Shown here: one piece after another, positions 4,344 to 29,470 of the stretch
How positions within the stretch are numbered: position 1 is the first letter of the stretch
Layout of the letters: each line of letters begins with the position of its first letter
From: Candidatus Poribacteria bacterium
GTDB lineage: Bacteria; Poribacteria; WGA-4E; GCA-2687025
Direction: 5' to 3'
DNA: 32,325 nucleotides
Assembly (NCBI GenBank): GCA_016866785.1
Contig: VGLH01000040.1
Span: forward strand, 1-32,325
Translations under genes and position numbers: made by a program
Notes under the pieces: model-generated
Told to the model about the DNA's origin: nothing
Seen by the model: only the letters and a program-made list of their open reading frames with translations
The model's database searches: none

Positions 4344-4441
4344 AGTGTGAGGGGTAGCTCCCCTCCTGGCGAATCCGACCGACGGACTCGACGCTTCATC
4401 CGCGCGCGCCCATCTCTCCATCGAAGGGTGAGCGCGCTTGT
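4344..4441 (+). repeat. Multi-hairpin dispersed repeat, copy 2
   Basis: Second copy of the block at 2212-2306, in the same orientation. The GAGGGGTAGCTCCCCTC core is identical and the shared tail includes GACGCTTCATCCGCGCG. The middle and last hairpins carry substitutions and a 2-base insertion that weaken pairing, so this copy is more decayed. It ends about 75 bases before the peptidase start and supplies the spurious TTG at 4438 that could be mistaken for that gene's start. Confidence 0.68.
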
Positions 4442-4515
4442 CTGAGACGGCGATGCACGACCACGGGATCCGCGCTATTCTCACGGCGAACACTGCCCTT
4501 GCGAGGAGACCGCCC

Positions 4516-5259
4516 GTGCAGACGATTCCCGCTGACTCCCGCGCGACGGCATCGGCTCCAGCCGCGATACCCAACGAAGCCGATCTGAACCCGCGATTCG
4601 AGCGATGGGGACTTTCGACCCGCCCGCAGGGCAACCGCCCGACGTGCTCCGTGTTCACCGTGACAGGCGCTCTGGAATACGCCCTCGCCAGCCGCGTGGG
4701 TCAGGGCACGCTGCTCAGTGTGGACTTTCTCAACTGGGCGTGCCAACAGGCGACCGGTCGCGAGACGGACGGGGCGTTCTTCTGGCAGCTCTGGGCGGGC
4801 TACGAGCAGTACGGCATCTGCCCGGAGAGCGACATGCCCTATGCCGCCGCGTTCGACCCTGAGCGGGACCCGTCGGCAGAGGCGCGCGATCGGGCGCAGC
4901 GTCGGTCGAAGCTCGCGCGACGTCTCCACTGGATCAAGGAATGGGACGTCAACACGGGTCTGACCGATGAGCAGTTCCTCGGCGTCAAGCGCGCTCTCGC
5001 CGATGGGTTCCCGGTCTGCGGCGGGTTTCGATGGCCCAAAAAGGCGACGTGGACCAACGGCGTCCTCGACATGTGCCCCGCCTCCGACGTGTTCGACGGA
5101 CACAGCGTCCTGCTCTCCGGGTACTGCGACGATCCGTCGGGAACCGGCGGCGTCTTCGCGATCCGCAACTCCGGCGGCTCGGACCGCGCCGGGTTCCTGA
5201 CTTACGAGTACGCGTGCGCCTACATGAACGACGCCGCCATCATCGAACCCGCTCCGTAG
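4516..5259 (+). CDS. Papain-like (C1A) cysteine peptidase
   Basis: A 247-residue protein with the papain layout: oxyanion Gln and nucleophile in PQGNRPTCSVFT (Q38, C44), histidine in FDGHSVLLSGY (H196) and asparagine in FAIRNSGGSD (N218). I place the start at the GTG at 4516, because GAGGAG (4503-4508) precedes it by 7 bases; an in-frame TTG at 4438 lies in the repeat and has no ribosome site. No signal peptide or inhibitory propeptide is visible, so the predicted enzyme is cytoplasmic and made without a prodomain, unlike most papains. It stops 19 bases before the DUF2961 gene and is probably cotranscribed with it. The substrate is unknown. Confidence 0.85.
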   Translation: MQTIPADSRATASAPAAIPNEADLNPRFERWGLSTRPQGNRPTCSVFTVTGALEYALASRVGQGTLLSVDFLNWACQQATGRETDGAFFWQLWAGYEQYGICPESDMPYAAAFDPERDPSAEARDRAQRRSKLARRLHWIKEWDVNTGLTDEQFLGVKRALADGFPVCGGFRWPKKATWTNGVLDMCPASDVFDGHSVLLSGYCDDPSGTGGVFAIRNSGGSDRAGFLTYEYACAYMNDAAIIEPAP

Positions 5260-11097: not shown

Positions 11098-11556
11098 TCA
11101 GAATCGGACGCTGAACGCTGCCAACGGGGCGCCGAACGGCGCTCTGCGGGATACCGGCGCGAGCGAGGGAGTTGTCGGCAGTTCGGGAAGCAACGGCTCG
11201 TTACGGTCCTTGCCTCGCAGCCGGAGCCAGTCGTACGCCGCAATCGCGATGGCGAAACCCGCCGCGCCGACGCCGACCCAGTTCCAGTCGTCGCCTTCGA
11301 CGCCGGCGGCGAGGCTGCCAGCTTGCGCGACTCGGACTGAACGGACGACGACGTAGCTATGGACCGCCGTGAAGGGCAGAGCGACGAGCGTCACGATCTC
11401 GAAGCGCCGAAGCGTCGACTCGCCGCGGATCGCCGTGGCGGATTCCTCGGCGTCATCCGCCCCTGTGGGCTCGGCAGCCGTCTGACACAGCGCTGATGAT
11501 CCGAGCGTCAGGAAGGCGAGCATCGCTACCAGCGCACGAGCAATCTCACGCCGCAT
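11098..11556 (-). CDS. Small membrane protein of unknown function
   Basis: A 152-residue protein I do not recognise. It starts with a basic N-region and hydrophobic stretch (RALVAMLAFLTLGSSAL), likely a signal peptide cleaved near residue 24. Two more hydrophobic helices lie at about 55-75 and 93-110. The ends are polar and the C-terminus is rich in Pro/Ala. The Cys at the end of the signal region does not fit a good lipobox. The ATG at 11556 overlaps the lspA stop by 11 bases, and the stop lies 8 bases before fmt. Its conserved position between lspA and fmt would be the best route to a function. Confidence 0.7.
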   Translation of the reverse strand: MRREIARALVAMLAFLTLGSSALCQTAAEPTGADDAEESATAIRGESTLRRFEIVTLVALPFTAVHSYVVVRSVRVAQAGSLAAGVEGDDWNWVGVGAAGFAIAIAAYDWLRLRGKDRNEPLLPELPTTPSLAPVSRRAPFGAPLAAFSVRF

Positions 11557-12082
11557 CGTCTGCTCCCTGGCTCTGAACGTCCGGCTGACGCCTCATCAGC
11601 ATGAGCAACACGAGCAAGCCTGCACCCACGCAAATCAGCGTGTCCGCGATGTTGAAGTAGGGCCACTGGTACGACCCCAGATCGACGTCGATGAAGTCCA
11701 CGACGTAGCGCAACCGGATACGATCGACGAAGTTCCCGACCGCTCCCGCCGCGATCAGCGACAATGCGACGCGCACCGGCAGGTGCTCTCGGTGCTGCCA
11801 GTAGTACCAAGCGATGAAGCCCAGTGCGATGGTGGAGATGAGCAGGAGCGCGATGCTGACCGTCTCGCCCGCCCACATGCCGAATGCGCCGCCCGTGTTC
11901 TGCGTGTACGTCAGATGGATCAGACCGCCCAAGACGGGGATCGGTTTCCGCATCGATCCGCGGGCGAAGTAGTCTGAGATGCTGAGCTTCGTCCACTGAT
12001 CGAGCCCGACTAGCAGAGCCGCCAAGACCGCAAGCAACGCGTGCGATTTCCACTGGCTTTTCGCGTTGACGGGTTCGGTCAC
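11546..12082 (-). CDS. lspA: Lipoprotein signal peptidase II
   Basis: A 178-residue inner-membrane aspartyl peptidase that removes signal peptides from prolipoproteins. It has four hydrophobic helices and the family blocks DQWTK, NTGGAFG, GNFVDRIRLRYVVDF and WPYFNIADTLI; the catalytic aspartates are D129 and D147. The start is the GTG at 12082, overlapping the stop of the IleRS-like gene (GTGA); a longer frame to 12307 lies wholly within that gene. The ileS-lspA adjacency is a classic bacterial arrangement. Candidate lipoproteins in this window (the SCO protein and the ABC binding protein) are possible substrates. Confidence 0.95.
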   Translation of the reverse strand: MTEPVNAKSQWKSHALLAVLAALLVGLDQWTKLSISDYFARGSMRKPIPVLGGLIHLTYTQNTGGAFGMWAGETVSIALLLISTIALGFIAWYYWQHREHLPVRVALSLIAAGAVGNFVDRIRLRYVVDFIDVDLGSYQWPYFNIADTLICVGAGLLVLLMLMRRQPDVQSQGADDAA

Positions 12083-14664
12083 GCCGAGTCCTCCACGGGG
12101 TCGGGAACTTCGGAGAGCCGGACGGTTCCCGTCGATACCGGGTCGGCGTCCGGTTCCACCAGGCGTACCTCGACGCCTGCCAGCGCTGCCATGTCTTCGA
12201 CGAGAGCGGCGAACAGAGGTCTCCGGTCCTCGCGGTCGAGCACGAGCGACACGGGATCGCCATTGCCGCCTGCGACGTCGCGCGCCTTCCGCGCGACCGC
12301 GAGCCATTCCGCGAACGTGCCGTCGGGGCGATCCCGCCGTGTGACTCGGAGCACCGGCGGGCCCTCGTCGAAGGCGACGGAACTGTCGGACAGAAAGATG
12401 CTGTCAGCGTTTGCCCACACGGTGTGCCAGACGTGCTCGGCGGCGGCGGGCACCATGGGCGTAGCCAGTTTCGCGAACTGCGTGGCGCAGTCACGGAGCA
12501 GCGATTCCGCCAGACCGCGTCGTTCCCCCGATGCCGCCCCTCTCGCCTCGACGATCCGAGCATAGTCTCGCAGATCGTCTCCAAGCCGTCGCACACGCTT
12601 CCAGGCATCGAGGAACCGGTAGTTGCGGTAGCTGGTGGCGATCCGCCAGGCGGCTGTGCGGAAGTGCTCGTAGAACATCCCGTCGCACACGGGGAGCGCG
12701 GACGTCCACCGCGTTACGAGCTTCGCGTCGCGAGACACCCATGCCGCGTAGAGCATCGCGTCGAGGACATCCGCGTGCGCGGCGCGAGCGTGTGCCACGG
12801 GATCGTCCGAGTCCTCCTCCGGGTCGCGGATGACCAGCAGGCGGAACAGGTCCGACCCGCCTTTGGCGTCGTCGAGTAGGGTCATCAGATGGCTGTCGTC
12901 GGACACGGCGGGGTCGAGCCACGGGCTCTGCAGATGGAGGAACTGCATCGGCAGGACCTCCTTCGTCGCGAAGAGGGAGAGCAGCATCGGCACGACCCAG
13001 TTGAGCGCATCCTCGTCGGGCTCCAAGAAGATATCTCCGACGGCGGAGCTCTCGCGTCGTCCCTCCATGTTGAGGAGAGACGCGAGCACGGTCACCATCC
13101 GGGGGTCGAGGATGCTGGTGTCTTTGCGGAAATCCCGCTCGCCGCAGTGCGCACAGGAGACGTCATTCGCCAGAATCGCATCGGCTTTCATGCGGAACCA
13201 GGCATCGGTGCCCTTGTGGCTGATGAGGTCGCGGACGGCTTTGACGCCCTTATCGACATCCAACTGGCTCCCGCACTTGCGGCAGTAGAACGCCGGAACC
13301 GGGAGTCCCCACACGCGTTGGCGCGAGACGCCGAACTTGTGCTTCGCCTCGATCTTGGCAGCGATCGTGCCGGTTCCGTGCTCCGGGAACGCCTCGAGCG
13401 AGCGCATGTCGCGAACGACGCGCTCGGCGAGATTGTGGCGACGCGTATCGAAGAGCCATTGGTCGGCAGGACGGAAGATGGCGGGCATCTCGCACGTCCA
13501 GCAGTGAGGGTACTGGTTCTCGACGGTATCCATCTGTTCCAGGAACCCGATGTTGTCGAGCTGCAGGGCGATGTGCTCGGATGCCTCGAAGACGCTCAAG
13601 CCGCAGAACCGCTCGGCGTCCTCGGTAAGCCTTCCCTCGTCGTCGATGATCGAGACGATCCGGTAGTTGTGTTCCAGCCGAACGACGTAGTCGTCCTGGT
13701 TGTGACCGGGAATGGCGAGAAAGAGCCCGGCTCCCCTCTTTGGACCGTTCTGGACATCGCTGATGACGACGGGCAGCTCGGCGTTGACGAGCGGATGGCT
13801 GCAGGTGCACTGCAGCAGTTGCGTGGCGTCGATGGGTCGGATCGTCGCGCAGGGCTTGTCGGCGAGGATGCGGTTCGCGGTGCTCCGCTCGACGATGAGC
13901 GCCCCGGTCTCGTGCGCGACTGCGACGTAGTCGCCTTCCTTGGGAAGCGCGATGGCGATACCCGCCGGGAGCGCCCACAACTCGACGACCCAGACCATCA
14001 GGCTGACGTTGGTGCCGAGGTCCTCCAGCCCCTTCCGAACCGGGAACCGAACGTACGCCGCCGTGGATTTCCTCGGCTTCGGGCGAAGCTCGTCCTCAGT
14101 GAGGATGGTCTGGCACTGGACACACCAGTAGCTCGGCTTTGCCTCCTTCGAGAGGTAGCCTCGCTCCATCAGCAGACCGAAGCCGTCCAGGAGTCGAGCC
14201 TCATAGCGTGACTCGAACTGGGAGCGCACGCCTCGCCAGTCCGCAAACACGCCGAGGCGCTGCAAGAGCGCCTTTTCGGACGCCATGCGTCGGGCGACAC
14301 GAGCCTTGCACTGTCGGCGAACCTTGACGGCGTCGGTCGTATTGCCCGCCCGGTGTTCGGTTTGAACCACGTCGCTCTCGACGGATGGGTCGAACAGGTT
14401 CCAGCTAGGCAGGTAGGAGACGTTGAACCCCATCAACGCAGCGGCTTTGAAGTAGATGTCCTTGGCGATGCGGTGCGCGAGGTCGCGAGGGGTCGATTCC
14501 TCAATCGGCGGTCGGGGCACGTCGTGGATGACCTGCTTCTGCCGACCCTTGTTCCGCTGCCGAAGCCGTCCGAGGAGGTCTTCCTCGTCCCACCGACGCA
14601 GGATGTCGGTATCGCAGAAGCCCTCGAGAACGGAGGAATGGAAATCATCGTAGCTGTCGTGCAT
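12079..14664 (-). CDS. Isoleucyl-tRNA synthetase-like pseudoenzyme in the ileS slot
   Basis: An intact 861-codon frame with IleRS-specific blocks: LRRWDEEDLL, YPHCWTCEMPAIFRPADQWL (385-404), GVSRQRVWGLPVPAFYC (445-461) and an anticodon-domain-like LATPMVPAAAEHVW. The catalytic motifs are missing. The HDGPPYANG..HIGH block reads HDVPRPPIEESTPRDLAH (47-64), with TPRD where HIGH should be. WDCHGLPIE reads WNLFDPSVE. DVWFDSG reads DPRMVTV. The KMSKS region (about 585-600) has no such motif. In the editing domain WTTTPWTLP reads WVVELWALP (225-233), though GHNQDDY remains. The usual C-terminal CxRC zinc cluster is absent and the protein is short for IleRS. The ATG at 14664 follows the divIVA stop by 11 bases, and the stop overlaps lspA. 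By inference it cannot aminoacylate tRNA; its function is unknown. Confidence 0.85.
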   Translation of the reverse strand: MHDSYDDFHSSVLEGFCDTDILRRWDEEDLLGRLRQRNKGRQKQVIHDVPRPPIEESTPRDLAHRIAKDIYFKAAALMGFNVSYLPSWNLFDPSVESDVVQTEHRAGNTTDAVKVRRQCKARVARRMASEKALLQRLGVFADWRGVRSQFESRYEARLLDGFGLLMERGYLSKEAKPSYWCVQCQTILTEDELRPKPRKSTAAYVRFPVRKGLEDLGTNVSLMVWVVELWALPAGIAIALPKEGDYVAVAHETGALIVERSTANRILADKPCATIRPIDATQLLQCTCSHPLVNAELPVVISDVQNGPKRGAGLFLAIPGHNQDDYVVRLEHNYRIVSIIDDEGRLTEDAERFCGLSVFEASEHIALQLDNIGFLEQMDTVENQYPHCWTCEMPAIFRPADQWLFDTRRHNLAERVVRDMRSLEAFPEHGTGTIAAKIEAKHKFGVSRQRVWGLPVPAFYCRKCGSQLDVDKGVKAVRDLISHKGTDAWFRMKADAILANDVSCAHCGERDFRKDTSILDPRMVTVLASLLNMEGRRESSAVGDIFLEPDEDALNWVVPMLLSLFATKEVLPMQFLHLQSPWLDPAVSDDSHLMTLLDDAKGGSDLFRLLVIRDPEEDSDDPVAHARAAHADVLDAMLYAAWVSRDAKLVTRWTSALPVCDGMFYEHFRTAAWRIATSYRNYRFLDAWKRVRRLGDDLRDYARIVEARGAASGERRGLAESLLRDCATQFAKLATPMVPAAAEHVWHTVWANADSIFLSDSSVAFDEGPPVLRVTRRDRPDGTFAEWLAVARKARDVAGGNGDPVSLVLDREDRRPLFAALVEDMAALAGVEVRLVEPDADPVSTGTVRLSEVPDPVEDSA

Positions 14665-14675
14665 CGCGTGGTCTC

Positions 14676-15188
14676 TCAGACGTTCGTGGTCTTGACGACC
14701 CGCGTCGTGGGTTCTTCGTTCCGATCCGATGGATCGGCAGCCGATTCGTCCTCGCTCGCGGCGCGTCTGCCGAACTCGACGACGCGCGCCAGGTGCTCCC
14801 GCAGCAACGTCTCGTACTCCGCGGTCAGTCGCGGCACCGGCGACGGCTCGGATGGCTGCAGCCTGGAGGCAGTTCGCAGCCTTTCGGCTTCCGAACGCGC
14901 CGCGTTGACGATGGCGCGCGCCTGCTCCTCGGCGTCCGACACGATGGCGCGCGCTTCGTAGCGCGCTCGCTGTATCTCGGTTCCCGCGTCGCGAGTGCGC
15001 TCCGGTTCGGTGCTGGCGACCGTGCCGATGACGCCGTCTCGACGCCGCAGCCGTTCGTTCTCCTCGAGGAGCGCCGCAACGCCCTCTGCGATCTGGTCGA
15101 GGAACGACCCCACATCATCCGGGTCGAGCCCGTTGATCGCCTTGCGTCGGAACTCCCGTTGGAGGATGTCGAGCGGCGTGAGCTTCAT
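14676..15188 (-). CDS. divIVA: DivIVA-domain protein
   Basis: A 170-residue protein. The N-terminal LTPLDILQREFRRKAINGLD followed by VGSFLDQIAEGVAALLEENERL is the DivIVA membrane-binding and first coiled-coil segment. A second coiled coil spans about 72-108 (EIQRARYEARAIVSDAEEQA), and the acidic tail is disordered. DivIVA proteins recognise curved membrane at poles and septa and organise growth or division; in diderms the role is less defined. The ATG at 15188 overlaps the proC stop (ATGA). The proC-divIVA-ileS-lspA order matches a widely conserved cluster. Confidence 0.88.
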   Translation of the reverse strand: MKLTPLDILQREFRRKAINGLDPDDVGSFLDQIAEGVAALLEENERLRRRDGVIGTVASTEPERTRDAGTEIQRARYEARAIVSDAEEQARAIVNAARSEAERLRTASRLQPSEPSPVPRLTAEYETLLREHLARVVEFGRRAASEDESAADPSDRNEEPTTRVVKTTNV

Positions 15189-15997
15189 CCCGCGACCTTC
15201 CCGAGCTCCCGCGAGCGCTCCGTCGCGGCAGTCACCGCCTCGGCGAGCGCAGCCCGCAGGCCGAGTCGCTCCAAGGCGGCGAGTCCGGCGGCGGTGGTTC
15301 CACCAGGGGACGTCACCATCGTCTTGAGCTGCGCGGGGTGCGCATCGCCCGATAGCAGCATCTTCGCCGCCCCCAGAAGCGTCTGCGCGGCGAGAACCCG
15401 CGCCTGGGCGAACGTCAGTCCGTTCTGCACGCCGGCGTCTGCGAGCGCTTCGATGACAAGAAATGCAAAGGCGGGCCCGCTCCCGCTGAGTCCGGTCACC
15501 ACATCCATTAACGACTCAGACAGCCGCGCCGTGACGCCTACCGCCTCGAAGAGCCGCTCCGCTTGGACCAAGTGCTCCTCGGTCGCCGACGCGCCGGGGC
15601 ATATGGCAGTGGCGGCTTCCGAGACCGATGCGGCGATGTTCGGCATCACGCGCACGACCGGCGTCTCTGCCGGGAGGTAGCCCTCCAACGACCGAGTCCG
15701 AACGCCTGCCGCGATGGAGAGAAGCCATTGACCGGGTCGGACGTGGCGCGCCACCTGGGGCAGAACTTCGGCGACGTTCTGGGGCTTCGCGGAGAATACG
15801 ATCCAGTCGGACTGCGCGACCAGGTCCTCGAGGCTCGCAGCAACGCGGACGCCATGCTCTTGGCGGGCGGCTGCTGTTTGCGACGCGAGCGCATCGAAGA
15901 CGAGCACGCTGTCTGATTCGAGCACACCGGCGCTCAGCCCGCCCTTGAGGATGGACATGCCCATATTGCCGACGCCGATGAACCCTACCATTGCCAT
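15185..15997 (-). CDS. proC: Pyrroline-5-carboxylate reductase
   Basis: A 270-residue enzyme that reduces 1-pyrroline-5-carboxylate to L-proline with NAD(P)H. The N-terminal Rossmann motif is GFIGVGNMGMSI. Other blocks are FSAKPQNV, RVMPNIAASV, LSGSGPAFAF and MVTSPGGTTAAGL, the conserved dimer/active-site region. GGAGG lies 7 bases before the ATG at 15997; an alternative in-frame ATG two codons in is less well spaced. It is the first gene of the coupled run down to rpe and follows the SCO gene (stop at 16074) by 76 bases. Confidence 0.95.
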   Translation of the reverse strand: MAMVGFIGVGNMGMSILKGGLSAGVLESDSVLVFDALASQTAAARQEHGVRVAASLEDLVAQSDWIVFSAKPQNVAEVLPQVARHVRPGQWLLSIAAGVRTRSLEGYLPAETPVVRVMPNIAASVSEAATAICPGASATEEHLVQAERLFEAVGVTARLSESLMDVVTGLSGSGPAFAFLVIEALADAGVQNGLTFAQARVLAAQTLLGAAKMLLSGDAHPAQLKTMVTSPGGTTAAGLAALERLGLRAALAEAVTAATERSRELGKVAG

Positions 15998-22242: not shown

Positions 22243-25200
22243 CTAGGCGCGGTTCTTGACGGCGAGCTCGTTGAGCGCCTCCAACTCGCGCTTGAGGAGC
22301 TCGAGCGCCTTCGCGGCGTCCATCAGCTTCCCCTCGCCGGTCATCTTCAGATACTGCTGAAGGGCTTGGTTCGCGGATGCCGCAATGTCCGCGAGCGAGC
22401 GTACGGGCTTGGGCTTTGCCTCGGATCGCTGGAGCGCAAGCGCCAGTTCGACCGGGATACCGGGCTGCACATCGACGGGAGTGTCGGACGTGCGGAAGCC
22501 CTCCCGCGCGATCCGGAGCGTATACTTCCCAGGCGGGATGTTCTCGACTCGGAACTTCCCGGTCGCATCGCTGATGCCCGGGTTCGCCAGCGTCGCCCCG
22601 TCCGCCGCGACCAGAGTCACCACCGCGTTCTGCACGGGGCTCTTTCCGGCGTCTACGATGCTCCCCGATGCGATGCCGAACTGCCCGACGCGGAATACCT
22701 TGCGGAGGGATGCTTCAAACGTTGCGTCCACGGCGAGCTTGTCGTCGGCGATCACAACGACGAACTTGAGCTCGGGCATGCTCTGACCAGCCTCCGCCGT
22801 CGCTCGCAGATAGACCGGCTCCGTGTAGAACAATGCGTCCTCGCCGCTGACCGTCCGGACCGGCAGCAGCAGCAGGTTCCCACGGATCACCTCGGAACCG
22901 GCTGCGCCCAACAGCGTGAACTGCCCCGACAACTCCGTGTCCTGGTCGATGCGGTTCTCGATTTGCTCGGGCCCGTCCACTTCTTCGGAGCGTGAGAGCG
23001 CGTAAGCCCGTACTTCGCCATAGTGTTCTCGATCCGAGCGCGCGACAATCCATGCGGTCAGCCGCTTCGTGGTCGCAGGCGGCGCAAACGGCAGCACGCT
23101 GACGAACTCAGGTTTCGACATGCCGGGGAGGGTGAGAACCGTGTAGTAGGGCATCATCGGCTGCAGACCGTTGCTGTGGAAGAGCTCTCGCGGCAGTTTC
23201 CACGCGTCGCCGCCCGTGATGAAGATGACCGGGTCTTGGACGTGATACAGCGCGTAGACGGACGACTGAACCCATGTCAAATAGTCCGGGAACCGCAGAT
23301 GCGTGCGCACCTCCTCCGGCATGTCGTCCATCGGCGTGAACACCTGCGGGAACAGGTGCATGTACATCTGGATCATCGGATCGTTGACGTCGGTGGCGTA
23401 GATGTAGACGCTGCCGTGGTACGCGTCGATCACGGCGACGGCCGAGTTGCGGATGTAGTTGAACCGCTTGAGGTCCGGCTCCGTGTGGTAATCGCCGCCG
23501 AGATCGTTGACGGGCTTGCCGGTCGTGTCGAGCGCTCGGAACGGCTGGGAATAGGGATACCGCGTGCTCACCGTATACGCGTCGATGACCCACCACAGCC
23601 TACCGGAATCCTTGCCGATAACGAGGAACGGATCGGGGTCGAACTCCAGGAAGGGCGCGATGCGCTGGACGCGCTCTTCCACCTGCCGATGGTAGAGCAC
23701 CCTCGATTCGGGCGTCAGGGCGGACGACAGCGCGACGCGAAGCGGCTCGTTGAGACGACTGGCGAAAGCGAGACGTCGAAGCCCGCCCCCTATTCGGACT
23801 CCGCCGATGCCGTCGTACTGCGTCGTCGCGAAGTCCGCCTCGATGGGATAGTCGTATTCCAGCTCCGCCGTGTTGACGATGGAGTAGTCCTTCGTCAGCT
23901 CGCCGTAGTAGATGCGGGGCTGCTTGATGGTGACCGACTCGAAGCCGGTGTCGCCGGGAGTCTTGGGAGGGATGCCCTTCAGCCAGAAACGGGGCACGCC
24001 GGGGTCTTCGACTTCATTGACCGGCGAGACGACGACGCCGTATCCGTGCGTGTACTTGAGCCGTTTGCTGAACCACTCGCGCCCTGCGAGCCACGTCGGG
24101 TTCAGTTCACGCGCGGCGACCACGACCTGGCGCATTTCGCCGTTCACCTCGTACCGGTCAACGTCGGGATCGCGGTGGAACTCGTAATAGCGTTGCAGCG
24201 TGTGGCTCTGCTGCAGCCGCTCCCACATGACGCGGCGGTCCCATAGCTGGACGTTCTTGAGCACCTCGGGGTGCGCGACGATGTCCTGATACTGCGCCAG
24301 CTTGCGGATGACCCCGCTCTGAGCGATGGACTCGAGGTTGAACGCCTGGCGCGTCAGTGAGATGTGGTTCTGTAGGAACACGCGCTCCATGCGCAGCGGG
24401 TTGGGACGCACGCGCAGCACGTATTGGATCGCGGGATACCCCCAGATGATCGCAAGATAGGCTCCCACCCAAGCGATGCCCACCGACGCCCAGATGCGCC
24501 GCTGCCGAAGGAAGATGTTGACGATCAGCACGCACATCAGCACGATCACGACGAGCGTGTAGACCGGATAGGCTTCGATCTGCTTCAGGTCTACATAGCT
24601 GACCCCAACGGGAACACGCCCGCTCTTGATCGGTGACGGTCGGGCATAGAGAAGCCCTTCCGCAACGACGCGAGAGCGCCAGATGCCGACCGCCATCTGG
24701 ATGATCCACAACACCGTGCCGTGAACGGTCGCACCGACGACCGCCGCCGTCATCGAGTGGGCGTCCCGGTGGTAGTAGAACCGATACTGGTAGGCGATGA
24801 ACGCGAACGCCAGCCAGACCATCACCTTCACCCACAGGCTGGTCCACCAGACCGCGGAATACTGGAACAGGAAGTAACCGACGTTCTTGTGGAAGATGGG
24901 GTCCGCGAAACCGTCGCGCAGGTACTTGGAGTTCAGCAACTGCTCCGACAGCCCATCGACGGCGATACCGAGGTCCGCCCGCTCGACGGAAGCGCGGAAC
25001 ACCTGCATCTTTCGGTAGTTCTCGCCGGTGCGTCGCTGCCGCTGGGCTTCTGCGTCGAGCACGTCAGGGGTCTCTTCGACGGGCTCCAAGACGGTGGGAC
25101 CTCTGAGGGCGAGGTAGACATCATACGCGGTCGGTTCGCCCTGGTGGTTGAGCGCAGTCGGTCCCAGGAACCCCTGAATCACGTAGTGCTCGCGAGTGAT

Positions 25201-25929
25201 CCGGTGTCCGGCGGCGGGGCTCTCCGCGCCGAGGACGCGCACGTCCGGCAGCGCCTCGATCTTGGGAGTGAGCGATTGTGTCACGGCTTGGGCGAACCGC
25301 TCGAGATCCGCCTGGAATCGTCCGTTCCGATCCGCTGGGAGGTAGGCATGCTCAGGCTGACCGCCGTGAGGGAGCTCCAGCCTCACAATGGCGGGAACGC
25401 GACCGTGCCCGCGCTCGAACGCCCCATAGCTCGCGAAGTCTTCCCACAGCCGCATCGGCACAAACGCGATGATGCCGCTCAAGAGGAACGCGGCGACCGC
25501 CAACATGCGGTGGACGAAGCGCGTGTGGAGCGAGACCCAGCTCGCGAACTCCTTCGGGAGCGGACAGACCATTCGCGCCACGACCACATTGGCGAGCAGG
25601 AACACGCCGCCGCAGAGGGCGAACTTGCCGAACACACTCCAATGGAACCCGATGATGCGCCAGAACGCCGTTTCATAGCGCGAAGGCGCGCCGGTGCTGG
25701 TCACGAACTGCCGGAACCACAGGCTTTCCGTCCAGAGGTAGGCGGCGGTTGGGAAGGCGACGATGAACAGAGGGATCCATGACGAGAGGATCGTGAACCA
25801 TCCCTGGACCACGAGACGCCGTTCGCGCTGTCGCATCCCACGACGGACGCGCCAGAGCCCGACGCCCAATGCGAGGAGGAGCAGGAAGGCGTCGATGGCG
25901 AGGAGAAGCGTCGCGATGACACCGGTCAT
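22243..25929 (-). CDS. UPF0182-family membrane protein with inserted carboxypeptidase-regulatory-like domain
   Basis: A 1228-residue protein. The N-terminal ~500 residues contain about seven hydrophobic helices alternating with extracytoplasmic loops. The large soluble part has UPF0182 hallmarks: NPLRMERVFLQNHISLTRQAFNL, WDRRVM, LKYTHGYGVVVSPV, IYYGELTKDYSIVNT, RFNYIRNSAVAVIDAYHGSV and GLQPMMPYYTVLTLPG. Residues ~1086-1168 form a beta-sandwich typical of carboxypeptidase-regulatory-like domains (GKSPVQNAVVTLVAADG, GKFRVENIPPGKYTLRI), followed by the usual UPF0182 C-terminal helices (ANQALQQYLKMTGEGKLMDA). The function of the family is not established. It sits between the AAA gene (86-base gap) and ligA. 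Confidence 0.9.
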   Translation of the reverse strand: MTGVIATLLLAIDAFLLLLALGVGLWRVRRGMRQRERRLVVQGWFTILSSWIPLFIVAFPTAAYLWTESLWFRQFVTSTGAPSRYETAFWRIIGFHWSVFGKFALCGGVFLLANVVVARMVCPLPKEFASWVSLHTRFVHRMLAVAAFLLSGIIAFVPMRLWEDFASYGAFERGHGRVPAIVRLELPHGGQPEHAYLPADRNGRFQADLERFAQAVTQSLTPKIEALPDVRVLGAESPAAGHRITREHYVIQGFLGPTALNHQGEPTAYDVYLALRGPTVLEPVEETPDVLDAEAQRQRRTGENYRKMQVFRASVERADLGIAVDGLSEQLLNSKYLRDGFADPIFHKNVGYFLFQYSAVWWTSLWVKVMVWLAFAFIAYQYRFYYHRDAHSMTAAVVGATVHGTVLWIIQMAVGIWRSRVVAEGLLYARPSPIKSGRVPVGVSYVDLKQIEAYPVYTLVVIVLMCVLIVNIFLRQRRIWASVGIAWVGAYLAIIWGYPAIQYVLRVRPNPLRMERVFLQNHISLTRQAFNLESIAQSGVIRKLAQYQDIVAHPEVLKNVQLWDRRVMWERLQQSHTLQRYYEFHRDPDVDRYEVNGEMRQVVVAARELNPTWLAGREWFSKRLKYTHGYGVVVSPVNEVEDPGVPRFWLKGIPPKTPGDTGFESVTIKQPRIYYGELTKDYSIVNTAELEYDYPIEADFATTQYDGIGGVRIGGGLRRLAFASRLNEPLRVALSSALTPESRVLYHRQVEERVQRIAPFLEFDPDPFLVIGKDSGRLWWVIDAYTVSTRYPYSQPFRALDTTGKPVNDLGGDYHTEPDLKRFNYIRNSAVAVIDAYHGSVYIYATDVNDPMIQMYMHLFPQVFTPMDDMPEEVRTHLRFPDYLTWVQSSVYALYHVQDPVIFITGGDAWKLPRELFHSNGLQPMMPYYTVLTLPGMSKPEFVSVLPFAPPATTKRLTAWIVARSDREHYGEVRAYALSRSEEVDGPEQIENRIDQDTELSGQFTLLGAAGSEVIRGNLLLLPVRTVSGEDALFYTEPVYLRATAEAGQSMPELKFVVVIADDKLAVDATFEASLRKVFRVGQFGIASGSIVDAGKSPVQNAVVTLVAADGATLANPGISDATGKFRVENIPPGKYTLRIAREGFRTSDTPVDVQPGIPVELALALQRSEAKPKPVRSLADIAASANQALQQYLKMTGEGKLMDAAKALELLKRELEALNELAVKNRA

Positions 25930-26015: not shown

Positions 26016-28133
26016 TCAGACGCCTGTCGGCGACATCAGGTGTGACAACTCGCGGAGCCGAGCGTCGATGCGCTCCTTGGCGACGCGCGATCCATCCAAG
26101 ATGGACGCCGCGAGTGGCGGAAGGATCACGTCTGGAAGTTGCGTCCTGGCGGTGGAGAACCTCGCCGCTTGCAGCGATCTCCACTCCGTCTCCATCGGTG
26201 TCGATTCTGATGCGAAGTCGTTGAGCGTCGCCAGCAGGTCGTCTCGGACGACTTGCGATCTGCCGGAGACCGAGGCGCGTCGCGAGGCGCGGACGACGAT
26301 GGTCGCGAGGTCCTCGCCGGTGAGACGTTCGGCTGCGGGCTGGCGCATCAGCTCCTCGAACGGGATGTCGCCGCTGAACGGCACGTGCGTATGCAGCAAC
26401 ACCTTGCGGAGGATGTCCGCGCGTTCCTGGGGTGTCGGCAGCAGATAGACGAGCGTATCCATCAGCGGCACGGCGACGAGGCTCGGTTCGACCAGCTCGG
26501 GCGCGGAGGATGCGCCGACCCACAGGATTTGGCAGCGCGTGTCGGGGCGCGACATCCAGTCGAGGAGCATGCCGGTCGCGCGTGAGGTCGGAGCGCGTCC
26601 CAAAGCCGTGCTGCCCCGGCGGAACGTCTCGTCGACACGGTCGATGAAGACGACCGAGGGTCCGATCGAGCGCGCGTAGTTCAGCGCCAACATCAGGTCA
26701 TTCGCGTACGCGTCCTCTGCCGCGAGTCCTAGCTCTGCGGGTCGAATGCCCAGTTCGTGCGGCATTCGGAGTCGGAGCACCGGCACGATCGTGCTGCGTG
26801 CCAGCGCGTGAAGCGTCATGCTCTTGCCGGTTCCCGGCGGTCCGAACAGCCAGACGCCGTTGGGCACGGCAACGCGGTCGCTTGCGAGCAGACGCGTGAT
26901 GACCTCCTGAAAGTAGCGACCCACGTGCGTCAGCCCGCCGACGTGCTCCAGAGGCGTATCCGGCGGCACAAGTTCGAGCAGCCCGCGTGAGAAGTCGAGC
27001 ACCTCGCGCGCTTTGCGTTCGTGCAGGTCCTCCCACCTCACCGCCGTGGAATGGATCGTGCTGGGCAGGATCGCGTCGTAAATGCTGCTGAGCGTCAGCC
27101 CGGCGGTTTGCTGGGCGGCGTCGCGCTGGTTGAAGCCTTCCGAGTAGCGCAGCCGGTCGGGGTACTGCGTCCTCTGCCGGAAGGGGGGCCAGTCCTTGAC
27201 CGGCTCCTCGCCTTCCTTGGGTTCTGGGGGCGGCTGCCAGTGCTCCGTGAAGAGCCCCAGATGTCTCAGAAACGCGCGCCGCTCTTGAAGCTCCGGCAGA
27301 GGCACTTCCAGCACGACCAGCTCGCGGCTGTCGAGGATCTCCGGGGCGACATCCGCCAGGTTCTGCGTCGTCATCACCAACAGATTACGGCGAGCGCGGA
27401 TCACCTTGTCGTAAGACCAGCGGGCGAGCGTCTCGGTGAGTAGGATCGACTCGGTGTTCCCGATCGGCTCGTTGCGACGGGAGCGATGGCGGTTGGGAGC
27501 CATCATCTCGACGCGCTCGATCAGGATGGCGACCCGTCGCCCGTACGGGTTCCCGTGAAGCAGCCCGTCGAACCGGTTGATGACGTCTCCGAGCGCCATG
27601 TTCCGGTCGACGCCGGAGCGCGCGGCACGGATTCCTGAGTTGAGGTGCTTCCATTGGTAGCGGGGCTGAGTCGCGAGGATCGCTTGGAAGGTCGGGTCGT
27701 CGCGCATCCGCGCGAAGGGCTTCTCATCAGCGCTATCGTCCTGCGCGCACTTGCCGAACTCGACGTCGAGCAGCGACAACGCCGCCAGCGCTCCGAGCGC
27801 TGCCCGGTCGTTCCCCGCCACGGAGGAGCTCTGGGCGAACTTGTAGAGCGTCGCGTTGAGACCGAACCGCCACTGGTAGTCGGCGCGCTCGCCGCCGCGC
27901 ACGCGGAGATCGGGCGGGAACACGGCTCCCAAGGATCGGTCGTACGCCATGAGGAGCCAATTGACCGACTCGTCGCCAAGCTGTCCGACATTCCACAGCA
28001 GGTAGTCGGAGAACGGAATGTATCCGAAGACGTTGTGCGCGACGATGTCGCGGGTGTTCAGGTGAAGCAGGAAATGGTGCGCCACCTCCGCCTCGTAGAG
28101 CTCGCGGATTCGGTTCCAGACAAATGAGACCAC
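26016..28133 (-). CDS. Two-module AAA ATPase (Ycf46-like arrangement)
   Basis: About 705 residues. An N-terminal helical region leads to a degenerate AAA module (RRVAILIERVEMMAP near 199-213, no Walker A) and then an active-looking one: Walker A GPPGTGKS (431-438, K437) and Walker B VVFIDRVDE (494-502). In the second module the usual RRGRFD region reads VAVPLMDTLVYLLP, so the arginine finger is not evident, and sensor 1 has Ser for Asn. This resembles Ycf46-type proteins; the role is unknown, possibly remodelling. I chose the GTG at 28133 (GGAG 10 bases upstream) because a longer frame to 28355 runs into waaA. It follows waaA by 26 bases. Confidence 0.82.
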   Translation of the reverse strand: MVSFVWNRIRELYEAEVAHHFLLHLNTRDIVAHNVFGYIPFSDYLLWNVGQLGDESVNWLLMAYDRSLGAVFPPDLRVRGGERADYQWRFGLNATLYKFAQSSSVAGNDRAALGALAALSLLDVEFGKCAQDDSADEKPFARMRDDPTFQAILATQPRYQWKHLNSGIRAARSGVDRNMALGDVINRFDGLLHGNPYGRRVAILIERVEMMAPNRHRSRRNEPIGNTESILLTETLARWSYDKVIRARRNLLVMTTQNLADVAPEILDSRELVVLEVPLPELQERRAFLRHLGLFTEHWQPPPEPKEGEEPVKDWPPFRQRTQYPDRLRYSEGFNQRDAAQQTAGLTLSSIYDAILPSTIHSTAVRWEDLHERKAREVLDFSRGLLELVPPDTPLEHVGGLTHVGRYFQEVITRLLASDRVAVPNGVWLFGPPGTGKSMTLHALARSTIVPVLRLRMPHELGIRPAELGLAAEDAYANDLMLALNYARSIGPSVVFIDRVDETFRRGSTALGRAPTSRATGMLLDWMSRPDTRCQILWVGASSAPELVEPSLVAVPLMDTLVYLLPTPQERADILRKVLLHTHVPFSGDIPFEELMRQPAAERLTGEDLATIVVRASRRASVSGRSQVVRDDLLATLNDFASESTPMETEWRSLQAARFSTARTQLPDVILPPLAASILDGSRVAKERIDARLRELSHLMSPTGV

Positions 28134-28159
28134 GACGGCATCGCTCCACGCAGGTTGGG

Positions 28160-29470
28160 TCAGCGCCGCTCGGTCGTCGCGGGGAGTACATGGGCTCGCA
28201 GCGCTTCGAGCGTCCGGTCGCTCGCTCCGAGATTGACCACGATGAACTGTCTCCCGGCTGTGCCGATACGGTGACACCGTTCCGCGTCTTGGGCAAGCCG
28301 GATGAGGGCTTCGGCGAGATCGTCGCTGCCGGTGACCGCGATGCTGCCGCCGCACGCTCGCAGCCCCGCCGCCTCCGAGGAGTTGTCGGTCAGCGGTCCG
28401 ACGAGGACCGGCTTCGAGAACGCCGCAGGCTCCATGACGTTGTGAACGCGCCGATGGAAGCTGCCCCCGACGAAGGCGGCGTCCGAAGCGGCGTAGAGCC
28501 GGGCGAGCAGACCAACTCGATCGACGATCAGCGCGTCAGCCCGGCGCGCGTCCGCCCTCGCATCGACGGCGGACAGGCATACGGATCGCAGGTCTGCACG
28601 GTTCAGCGCTTTCTGCGTCATCGCGACGTGGCTCGGCGTGGGTTCGTGCGGCACGACGATGAGGCGAGAGCTCGGAATCTGCTTTCGCAGGGCGACGAAT
28701 GCGGGGATCACGACCTGTTCGTCGGCTGCGTAGGTGCTGCCGGCGATTAGTGTGAAGCCGTTCCAACCTTCGAGCGCCGTGGGCAGCGGCTCGGATTCGG
28801 ATCGGCGCGCGCGCGCCTCGACTTGGTCGAACCGCGTGTCGCCGGTCACGACGATGTTCGCGCCCTTCCCCGCCAGCACGCGAAGCCGGTGGGCGTCCTC
28901 CTGAGTCACGGCACAGAGCAGCGCCAGATGGGGATAGACGTGCTGCATGAGCCCTCGGACCGGCTGAATCAGACGCGTCGATTTGGCGTGCATCGTCCCG
29001 GCGATCAGGGCAACCGGAATCCCTCGGCGGGATGCCTCCCACACGCAGTTGGGCCACACGTCGAACTTGCTGAACACGACCGCGCTCGGCCGGACGAGGT
29101 CCAACAGCGCGTTCACCTCTCGGCGGGAGTCGAACGGCAGGTAGCAGGACCCGTCGGCGTGCGGATAGCGCCCAATCGCCTGATACACCGACGGCGAGAA
29201 GCAGGTCACGACGATGCGATGGTCGGGGTGCAGGGCGGCGATGACCGGCTTGGCTTGCTCGAACTCGCCGACCGACGTCGTGTGGAACCAGAGCGTGCGG
29301 TCGGCGGAGCGGGCTTCGGCGAGCTTGCGTGCGAGCTCCGAGCGCCACGTTCGCTGACCTGACAGGACTTCGCGCGCCTTGCTATCGAACACGGCGGCAG
29401 CGCGCATGGCGACCTTCGCCACGGGACTCCCGACGGCGTCGTAAAGGGATCGCCAAGTGGACTCGCGCAT
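28160..29470 (-). CDS. waaA: 3-deoxy-D-manno-octulosonic acid (Kdo) transferase
   Basis: A 436-residue GT30 enzyme that adds Kdo from CMP-Kdo to lipid A precursor at the inner membrane. It shows WFHTTSVGEFEQAKPVI, with the catalytic-base Glu (E69) in SVGE, then FSKFDVWPN, LIAGSTYAADEQ, VVPHEPTP and the C-terminal VGGSFHRRVHNVMEPAAFSKP. The usual GGHN block reads RVHN, a mild change. No clear N-terminal membrane helix is seen, so peripheral association is likely. Its presence implies lipopolysaccharide and a diderm envelope. The ATG at 29470 comes three bases after the trx stop; no separate ribosome site is obvious, so coupling to trx is likely. Confidence 0.92.
   Translation of the reverse strand: MRESTWRSLYDAVGSPVAKVAMRAAAVFDSKAREVLSGQRTWRSELARKLAEARSADRTLWFHTTSVGEFEQAKPVIAALHPDHRIVVTCFSPSVYQAIGRYPHADGSCYLPFDSRREVNALLDLVRPSAVVFSKFDVWPNCVWEASRRGIPVALIAGTMHAKSTRLIQPVRGLMQHVYPHLALLCAVTQEDAHRLRVLAGKGANIVVTGDTRFDQVEARARRSESEPLPTALEGWNGFTLIAGSTYAADEQVVIPAFVALRKQIPSSRLIVVPHEPTPSHVAMTQKALNRADLRSVCLSAVDARADARRADALIVDRVGLLARLYAASDAAFVGGSFHRRVHNVMEPAAFSKPVLVGPLTDNSSEAAGLRACGGSIAVTGSDDLAEALIRLAQDAERCHRIGTAGRQFIVVNLGASDRTLEALRAHVLPATTERR

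Follow-up and report, generated by a model that had tools for sequence, protein, structure and literature searches.

An apparent isoleucyl-tRNA synthetase pseudoenzyme maintained by selection at the ileS locus of Candidatus Poribacteria

The window, by which we mean the whole 32,325-nucleotide stretch of DNA that was analysed, comes from a 4.35-Mb genome of Candidatus Poribacteria that is 95.4% complete; in the NCBI taxonomy, Ca. Poribacteria has the rank of a phylum. It contains an uninterrupted frame whose extent an earlier note had given correctly while leaving its strand unstated. The frame, hereafter pseudo-IleRS, lies on the minus strand together with proC, divIVA and lspA (Table 1). As the GTG start codon of lspA overlaps the TGA stop codon of pseudo-IleRS, translation of the two genes may be coupled. 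The gene order proC-(divIVA)-pseudo-IleRS-lspA was found in the inspected Poribacteria loci for which flanking sequence was available. Where the contig permits, lspA is followed by a small gene of unknown function, fmt, a gene for a PASTA protein and rpe, and the window is identical in order. Neither the window nor the locus of the second synthetase described below gave an Rfam hit to a T-box or any other RNA element. Other genes of the window are included in Table 1; the frame downstream of the papain-like peptidase gene is one that we read as DUF2961-like.

Table 1. Features of the window, with residue numbers of the pseudo-IleRS protein
Feature	Coordinates	Strand	Remarks
Papain-like (C1A) cysteine peptidase-like protein	4438..5259	plus	weak PF00112 match
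Small gene directly 3' of lspA	11098..11556	minus	apparent signal peptide and membrane segment, no Pfam match; in this position across Poribacteria
lspA (signal peptidase II)	11546..12082	minus	GTG start overlaps pseudo-IleRS stop (GTGA)
pseudo-IleRS1 gene	12079..14664	minus	861 codons plus stop, uninterrupted; PF00133 and PF08264 above cut-off, TIGR00392 267 bits
Anticodon-binding helical domain (665-760)	12385..12672	minus	relaxed constraint
Deleted KMSKS loop site (about 579-593)	12886..12930	minus	from alignment
Second zinc ribbon, C461-C464 ... C504-C507	13144..13284	minus	four Cys in 76/76; pN/pS 0.05-0.08
SRQRVWG (447-453)	13306..13326	minus	retained from IleRS; most constrained stretch begins here
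Zinc knuckle 1b, CWTC (388-391)	13492..13503	minus	conserved
Former editing loop	13690..13719	minus	His333 lost (L316); Asp342 kept here (D325), Ser in most relatives
Former editing threonines TTT (E. coli 241-243), now VVE (226-228)	13981..13989	minus	
Zinc knuckle 1a, WCVQC (180-184)	14113..14127	minus	conserved
Former WDCHGLP, now WNLFDPS (88-94)	14383..14403	minus	amino-group-binding Asp lost
Former HIGH, now TPRD (58-61)	14482..14493	minus	0/78 orthologues with HxGH or GxHH here
Former PPYANG, now PRPPIE (50-55)	14500..14517	minus	P50 kept in 77/78
divIVA	14676..15188	minus	PF05103
proC	15185..15997	minus	first gene of the conserved order
UPF0182 membrane protein	22243..25929	minus	fused to C-terminal carboxypeptidase-regulatory-like domain
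AAA ATPase protein	26016..28355	minus	779 residues; long N-terminal part without Pfam match

The product matched both profiles against which alignment had been proposed, scoring 267 bits with the NCBIfam IleRS model TIGR00392 and 98.5 bits with PF00133, as well as 35 bits with the anticodon-binding model PF08264. IleRS was the top match over all other families; the score was far below the TIGR00392 equivalog cut-off of 621 bits. Motifs were read from an alignment to E. coli IleRS. HIGH and WDCHGLP were replaced residue for residue as the earlier note had claimed, and deletion of the KMSKS loop agreed with its statement that no KMSKS-like lysine pair exists near residues 585-600. The reported loss of PPYANG was likewise correct, but the replacement had been read as RPPIEE, one position off the actual P50-RPPIE. 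WFDSG was also gone, and among the CP1 editing residues (Thr241-243, Asn250, His333 and Asp342) only Asp342 was kept, as D325. Since SRQRxWG, P50, W556 and D325 remain, the claim that every catalytic signature had been erased holds for HIGH, KMSKS and WDxHGLP but was slightly too strong overall. The C-terminal zinc finger zf-FPG_IleRS (PF06827) was not detected by Pfam in the window protein or in the scanned relatives of the same class. We take the spacing of the cysteine pairs in the two zinc ribbons to resemble that in T. thermophilus IleRS, which likewise has two zinc sites. Structure prediction from a two-sequence alignment (the window protein and its relative L039) gave a mean pLDDT of 36 and no usable model.

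All 85 Poribacteria genomes were searched, and 78 of them (~92%) contained an orthologue. The frame was not cut by a contig end in 74 of the 78, and in these it was uninterrupted over about 750-1000 codons. The position of HIGH most commonly read TLDT or TLNT, the second proline of PPYANG was missing in 75 orthologues, and the Asp of WDxHGLP was gone in nearly all, with Glu or Asn in most. KMSKS was absent from the 78 aligned orthologues. The suggestion that an IleRS pseudoenzyme had been retained in the ileS locus, with catalysis lost and the scaffold kept, was thus borne out nearly phylum-wide.

A single carrier (G002) belongs to another, basal class. Its frame begins at a contig edge, leaving the HIGH position unreadable, and it lacks both KMSKS and WFDSG, so loss of catalysis probably preceded the split between the two classes. 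The G002 copy keeps PF06827 (Pfam), so the zinc finger was probably lost secondarily in the class of the window. The window protein and those of G007 and G011 keep part of the domain preceding the finger, and proteins of other families end shortly after the anticodon helices; this C-terminal truncation looks like a stepwise reduction. The gene left no detectable trace in three genomes that are 92-96% complete (G012, G013 and G015), in which proC and lspA are 480-830 bases apart. These deletions are clean and the flanking genes, including lspA, are intact, indicating that pseudo-IleRS is dispensable in some lineages. One genome (G010) has another frame after divIVA in place of pseudo-IleRS, and no copy was found in three more (G001, G009 and G032), where the locus is unresolved. 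Viral contigs scanned with the family profile gave no match.

The family profile scored 421 bits against P. megaterium IleRS1 (8c9f), 403 bits against S. aureus IleRS1 (1ffy) and 241 bits against P. megaterium IleRS2 (8c9d). In the tree, the pseudo-IleRS clade had 100/100 support and joined IleRS1 opposite IleRS2 and ValRS on a branch supported at 100/99; the row labelled IleRS1_Psychrobacter joined the ValRS outgroup and was read as ValRS. In the loci examined, the gene occupies the ileS-lspA position, between proC/divIVA and lspA. As profile scores, tree and locus position agree, we conclude from these sequence comparisons that pseudo-IleRS is, by descent, the resident type-1 ileS of Poribacteria. 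A gene on a Variovorax plasmid (L203, 2992-5535), near an IS21 element, encodes an 847-residue 'class I tRNA ligase family protein' that is 35% identical to E. coli IleRS.

The genome of the window also contains a full IleRS on contig C6, a 1095-residue frame with a DUF5915 C-terminus that scored 920 bits. An IleRS above the cut-off was found in 20 of the 26 genomes checked, and a type-2 IleRS, about 1045-1192 residues long, in most genomes of the phylum. GVHH stood in place of HIGH in 30 of 31 aligned IleRS2 proteins, and all 31 had KMSKS or KMSKT. The copy in the window's own genome (C6:55707-58985) carries this swapped motif. So does a second, divergent IleRS2 lineage (L087, L089, L090 and L091, from G017, G012, G022 and G015), which is ~42% identical to that copy and replaces the usual IleRS2 in two Poribacteria families. 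No IleRS2 was found in a few draft genomes (e.g. G016 and G018), probably because these are incomplete. In IleRS2, GXHH confers mupirocin hyper-resistance, IleRS1 is intolerant of GXHH, and none of the IleRS1 proteins among 379 prokaryotic IleRSs surveyed had lost HXGH (PMC10485003). As the phylum apparently lives on a GVHH-containing IleRS2, we predict that Poribacteria are intrinsically hyper-resistant to mupirocin.

Constraint on pseudo-IleRS is unevenly distributed along the protein. Pooled pN/pS was 0.22 (28 pairs), compared with 0.09 for IleRS2 (8 pairs). The lowest values (0.05-0.08) fell at E. coli positions 465-554, which cover the SRQR segment and the second zinc ribbon; within this region, block 495-524 was tighter in pseudo-IleRS (0.06) than in the active-type IleRS2 (0.13). 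Values of 0.08 were also obtained at positions 75-104 and 165-194. All eight zinc cysteines (pairs 181/184, 388/391, 461/464 and 504/507) were 97-100% conserved where present.

Several readings of this pattern were weighed. The dead synthetase might still bind tRNA-Ile, charged or not, and act as a chaperone, sensor or translation regulator, for which SLIMP and the HisRS-like domain of Gcn2 are comparisons. It descends from a tRNA-binding enzyme, its first Rossmann segment is basic (pI 10.3 in the window, median 9.2), PF08264 was recognised in 27 of 27 members scanned, and the basal-class copy has the C-terminal finger. However, constraint is weakest in the anticodon helices (pN/pS 0.24-0.44, as opposed to 0.05-0.08 where it is strongest), and the anticodon-reading finger has been lost in members of the window's class. 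For these two reasons the classical tRNA-Ile anticodon binding raised in the earlier note is disfavoured outside the basal class, and we regard a tRNA-binding regulator as unlikely. The same note had also raised sensing of isoleucine. Sensing through the old pocket is disfavoured because the Asp of WDxHGLP and the Gln of DQ, which we take to be the residues gripping the alpha-amino group, are gone. A scaffold or protein-binding role, or binding of RNA at the acceptor end, is still possible.

Rebuilding of the old active site for a different chemistry, with REMP..TLDT replacing HDGPP..HIGH, would be a second possibility. In several families the stretch that once held HIGH has become conserved again, with Thr at the second His position in 60 of the 78 orthologues and a pN/pS of 0.18, falling to 0.08 in the next block. 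This reading is nevertheless improbable, as the replacement sequences vary by family (TPRD in the window, TLDT in others), the conserved columns contain no new set of catalytic-type Asp, His or Lys residues, and neither Pfam nor NCBIfam gave a match to another enzyme family. A stand-alone editing factor, in which the CP1 domain would go on clearing tRNA that carries the wrong amino acid, has even less to recommend it: the domain is retained and constrained and the window protein keeps Asp325, but Thr241-243, Asn250 and His333 are lost across the orthologues, and in 58 of the 78 Ser replaces Asp342.

Equally hard to sustain is a decaying gene retained only as a translational leader coupled to lspA. 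The overlapping stop and start codons, several losses of the gene and faster evolution than IleRS2 would fit such decay, and a dN/dS near 1 had been named beforehand as its expected sign. By the Nei-Gojobori method, omega was instead 0.10-0.39 in all 32 close pairs, never reaching 1, and was 0.105 for G007/G008, the pair nearest the window. This result contradicts decay, as do the 74 uninterrupted frames and the near-invariant zinc cysteines; moreover, genomes without pseudo-IleRS still have an intact lspA. Finally, an error of assembly or base calling confined to one genome, which no observation supports and for which relatives with an intact HIGH or KMSKS had been proposed as evidence, is refuted beyond reasonable doubt because no such relative was found and 78 genomes, several of them in only one to four contigs (G022, G028, G046, G080 and G082-G084), share the motif losses.

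On these comparisons, made without data on activity or on a partner, we are confident that pseudo-IleRS is a pseudoenzyme maintained by selection. The explanation that we prefer, and hold to be reasonably probable as a whole, is that the vertically inherited ileS of Poribacteria became a pseudoenzyme before the two sampled carrier classes split, and that a type-2 IleRS took over charging of tRNA-Ile. The intact type-2 gene is observed and its charging activity is inferred. The type-1 protein would have lost ATP binding, adenylate transfer, amino-group recognition and editing and later, outside the basal class, its C-terminal anticodon-reading zinc finger, with the Rossmann/CP1 shell and both zinc ribbons demonstrably kept under purifying selection. 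Erosion has reached the amino-acid, ATP, editing and, for the most part, anticodon sites but has spared the shell, the zinc ribbons and the SRQR face; on this ground a non-catalytic partner or scaffold, similar in logic to HisZ and SLIMP, is favoured over a tRNA-Ile sensor, and pseudo-IleRS would most likely work as a non-catalytic binding or regulatory subunit. We infer that the SRQR segment and the second zinc ribbon form the surviving functional face, at which a macromolecule would dock; another protein from the translation machinery is the likeliest candidate, ahead of the acceptor arm of tRNA. That it acts by docking a protein is only tentatively proposed in the absence of partner, expression or biochemical data, and the zinc ribbon may be so tightly constrained merely to keep the fold stable.

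Few enzymes are as conserved as the aminoacyl-tRNA synthetases. In Poribacteria the resident gene for one of them lost its catalytic motifs early in the history of the phylum, yet it persists in about 92% of genomes at its original operon position, and the dead version has probably acquired an undescribed role. We see the arguments as evenly balanced on the fuller proposal that, after takeover by a mupirocin-hyper-resistant type-2 enzyme, the resident ileS of the entire phylum was anciently turned into a non-catalytic protein that selection maintains for a new task in the control of translation or the assembly of complexes, and so into the first IleRS pseudoenzyme. If true, this would be an enzyme-to-scaffold conversion at a core housekeeping locus. 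The case is anchored by gene order and concerns an essential enzyme that became a pseudoenzyme once a functional analogue was present. Experiments can be directed at a defined surface, that of SRQR and the second zinc ribbon. The case also means that annotation of ileS by locus or weak homology will select the wrong enzyme in Poribacteria.

Pairs of IleRS1 and IleRS2 are known in which both members are active. Synthetase-derived pseudoenzymes are a known kind (PMC9437257). In agreement with the earlier note, the literature, searched among open-licence papers only, contained no description of an IleRS pseudoenzyme and no paper mentioning Poribacteria with isoleucyl-tRNA synthetase; to our knowledge, phylum-wide conversion of the resident synthetase gene is a new variant. 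Pseudo-IleRS is homologous to type-1 IleRS (E. coli IleS, S. aureus 1FFY, P. megaterium 8C9E/F/G) over ~760 residues and shares its ileS-lspA context, CP1 and SRQRxWG. It differs in lacking HIGH, KMSKS, WDxHGLP, WFDSG and most editing residues, and in having the C-terminal zinc finger only in the basal class. The intact partner gene in Poribacteria genomes corresponds to IleRS2 with GXHH in having GVHH, the altered mupirocin-linked motif; such proteins, unlike pseudo-IleRS, are active-type enzymes. HisZ, a HisRS paralogue without adenylation activity, is used as a regulatory subunit of HisG (PMC9437257) and offers a bacterial likeness for a non-adenylating regulatory role, but it is a class II protein with a known partner, and a paralogue rather than the resident synthetase gene. 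SLIMP is a conserved, catalytically dead SerRS paralogue that exists beside the active enzyme (PMC9437257), as pseudo-IleRS does; it differs in belonging to class II and to insect mitochondria, in its reported retention of tRNA binding and in having LON and SerRS as partners. LeuRS-I of Sulfolobaceae is, like pseudo-IleRS, a class I second synthetase with a disrupted editing domain and a divergent C-terminus, and it does not charge tRNA (PMC9437257). The difference is that LeuRS-I still makes leucyl-adenylate and binds tRNA-Leu.
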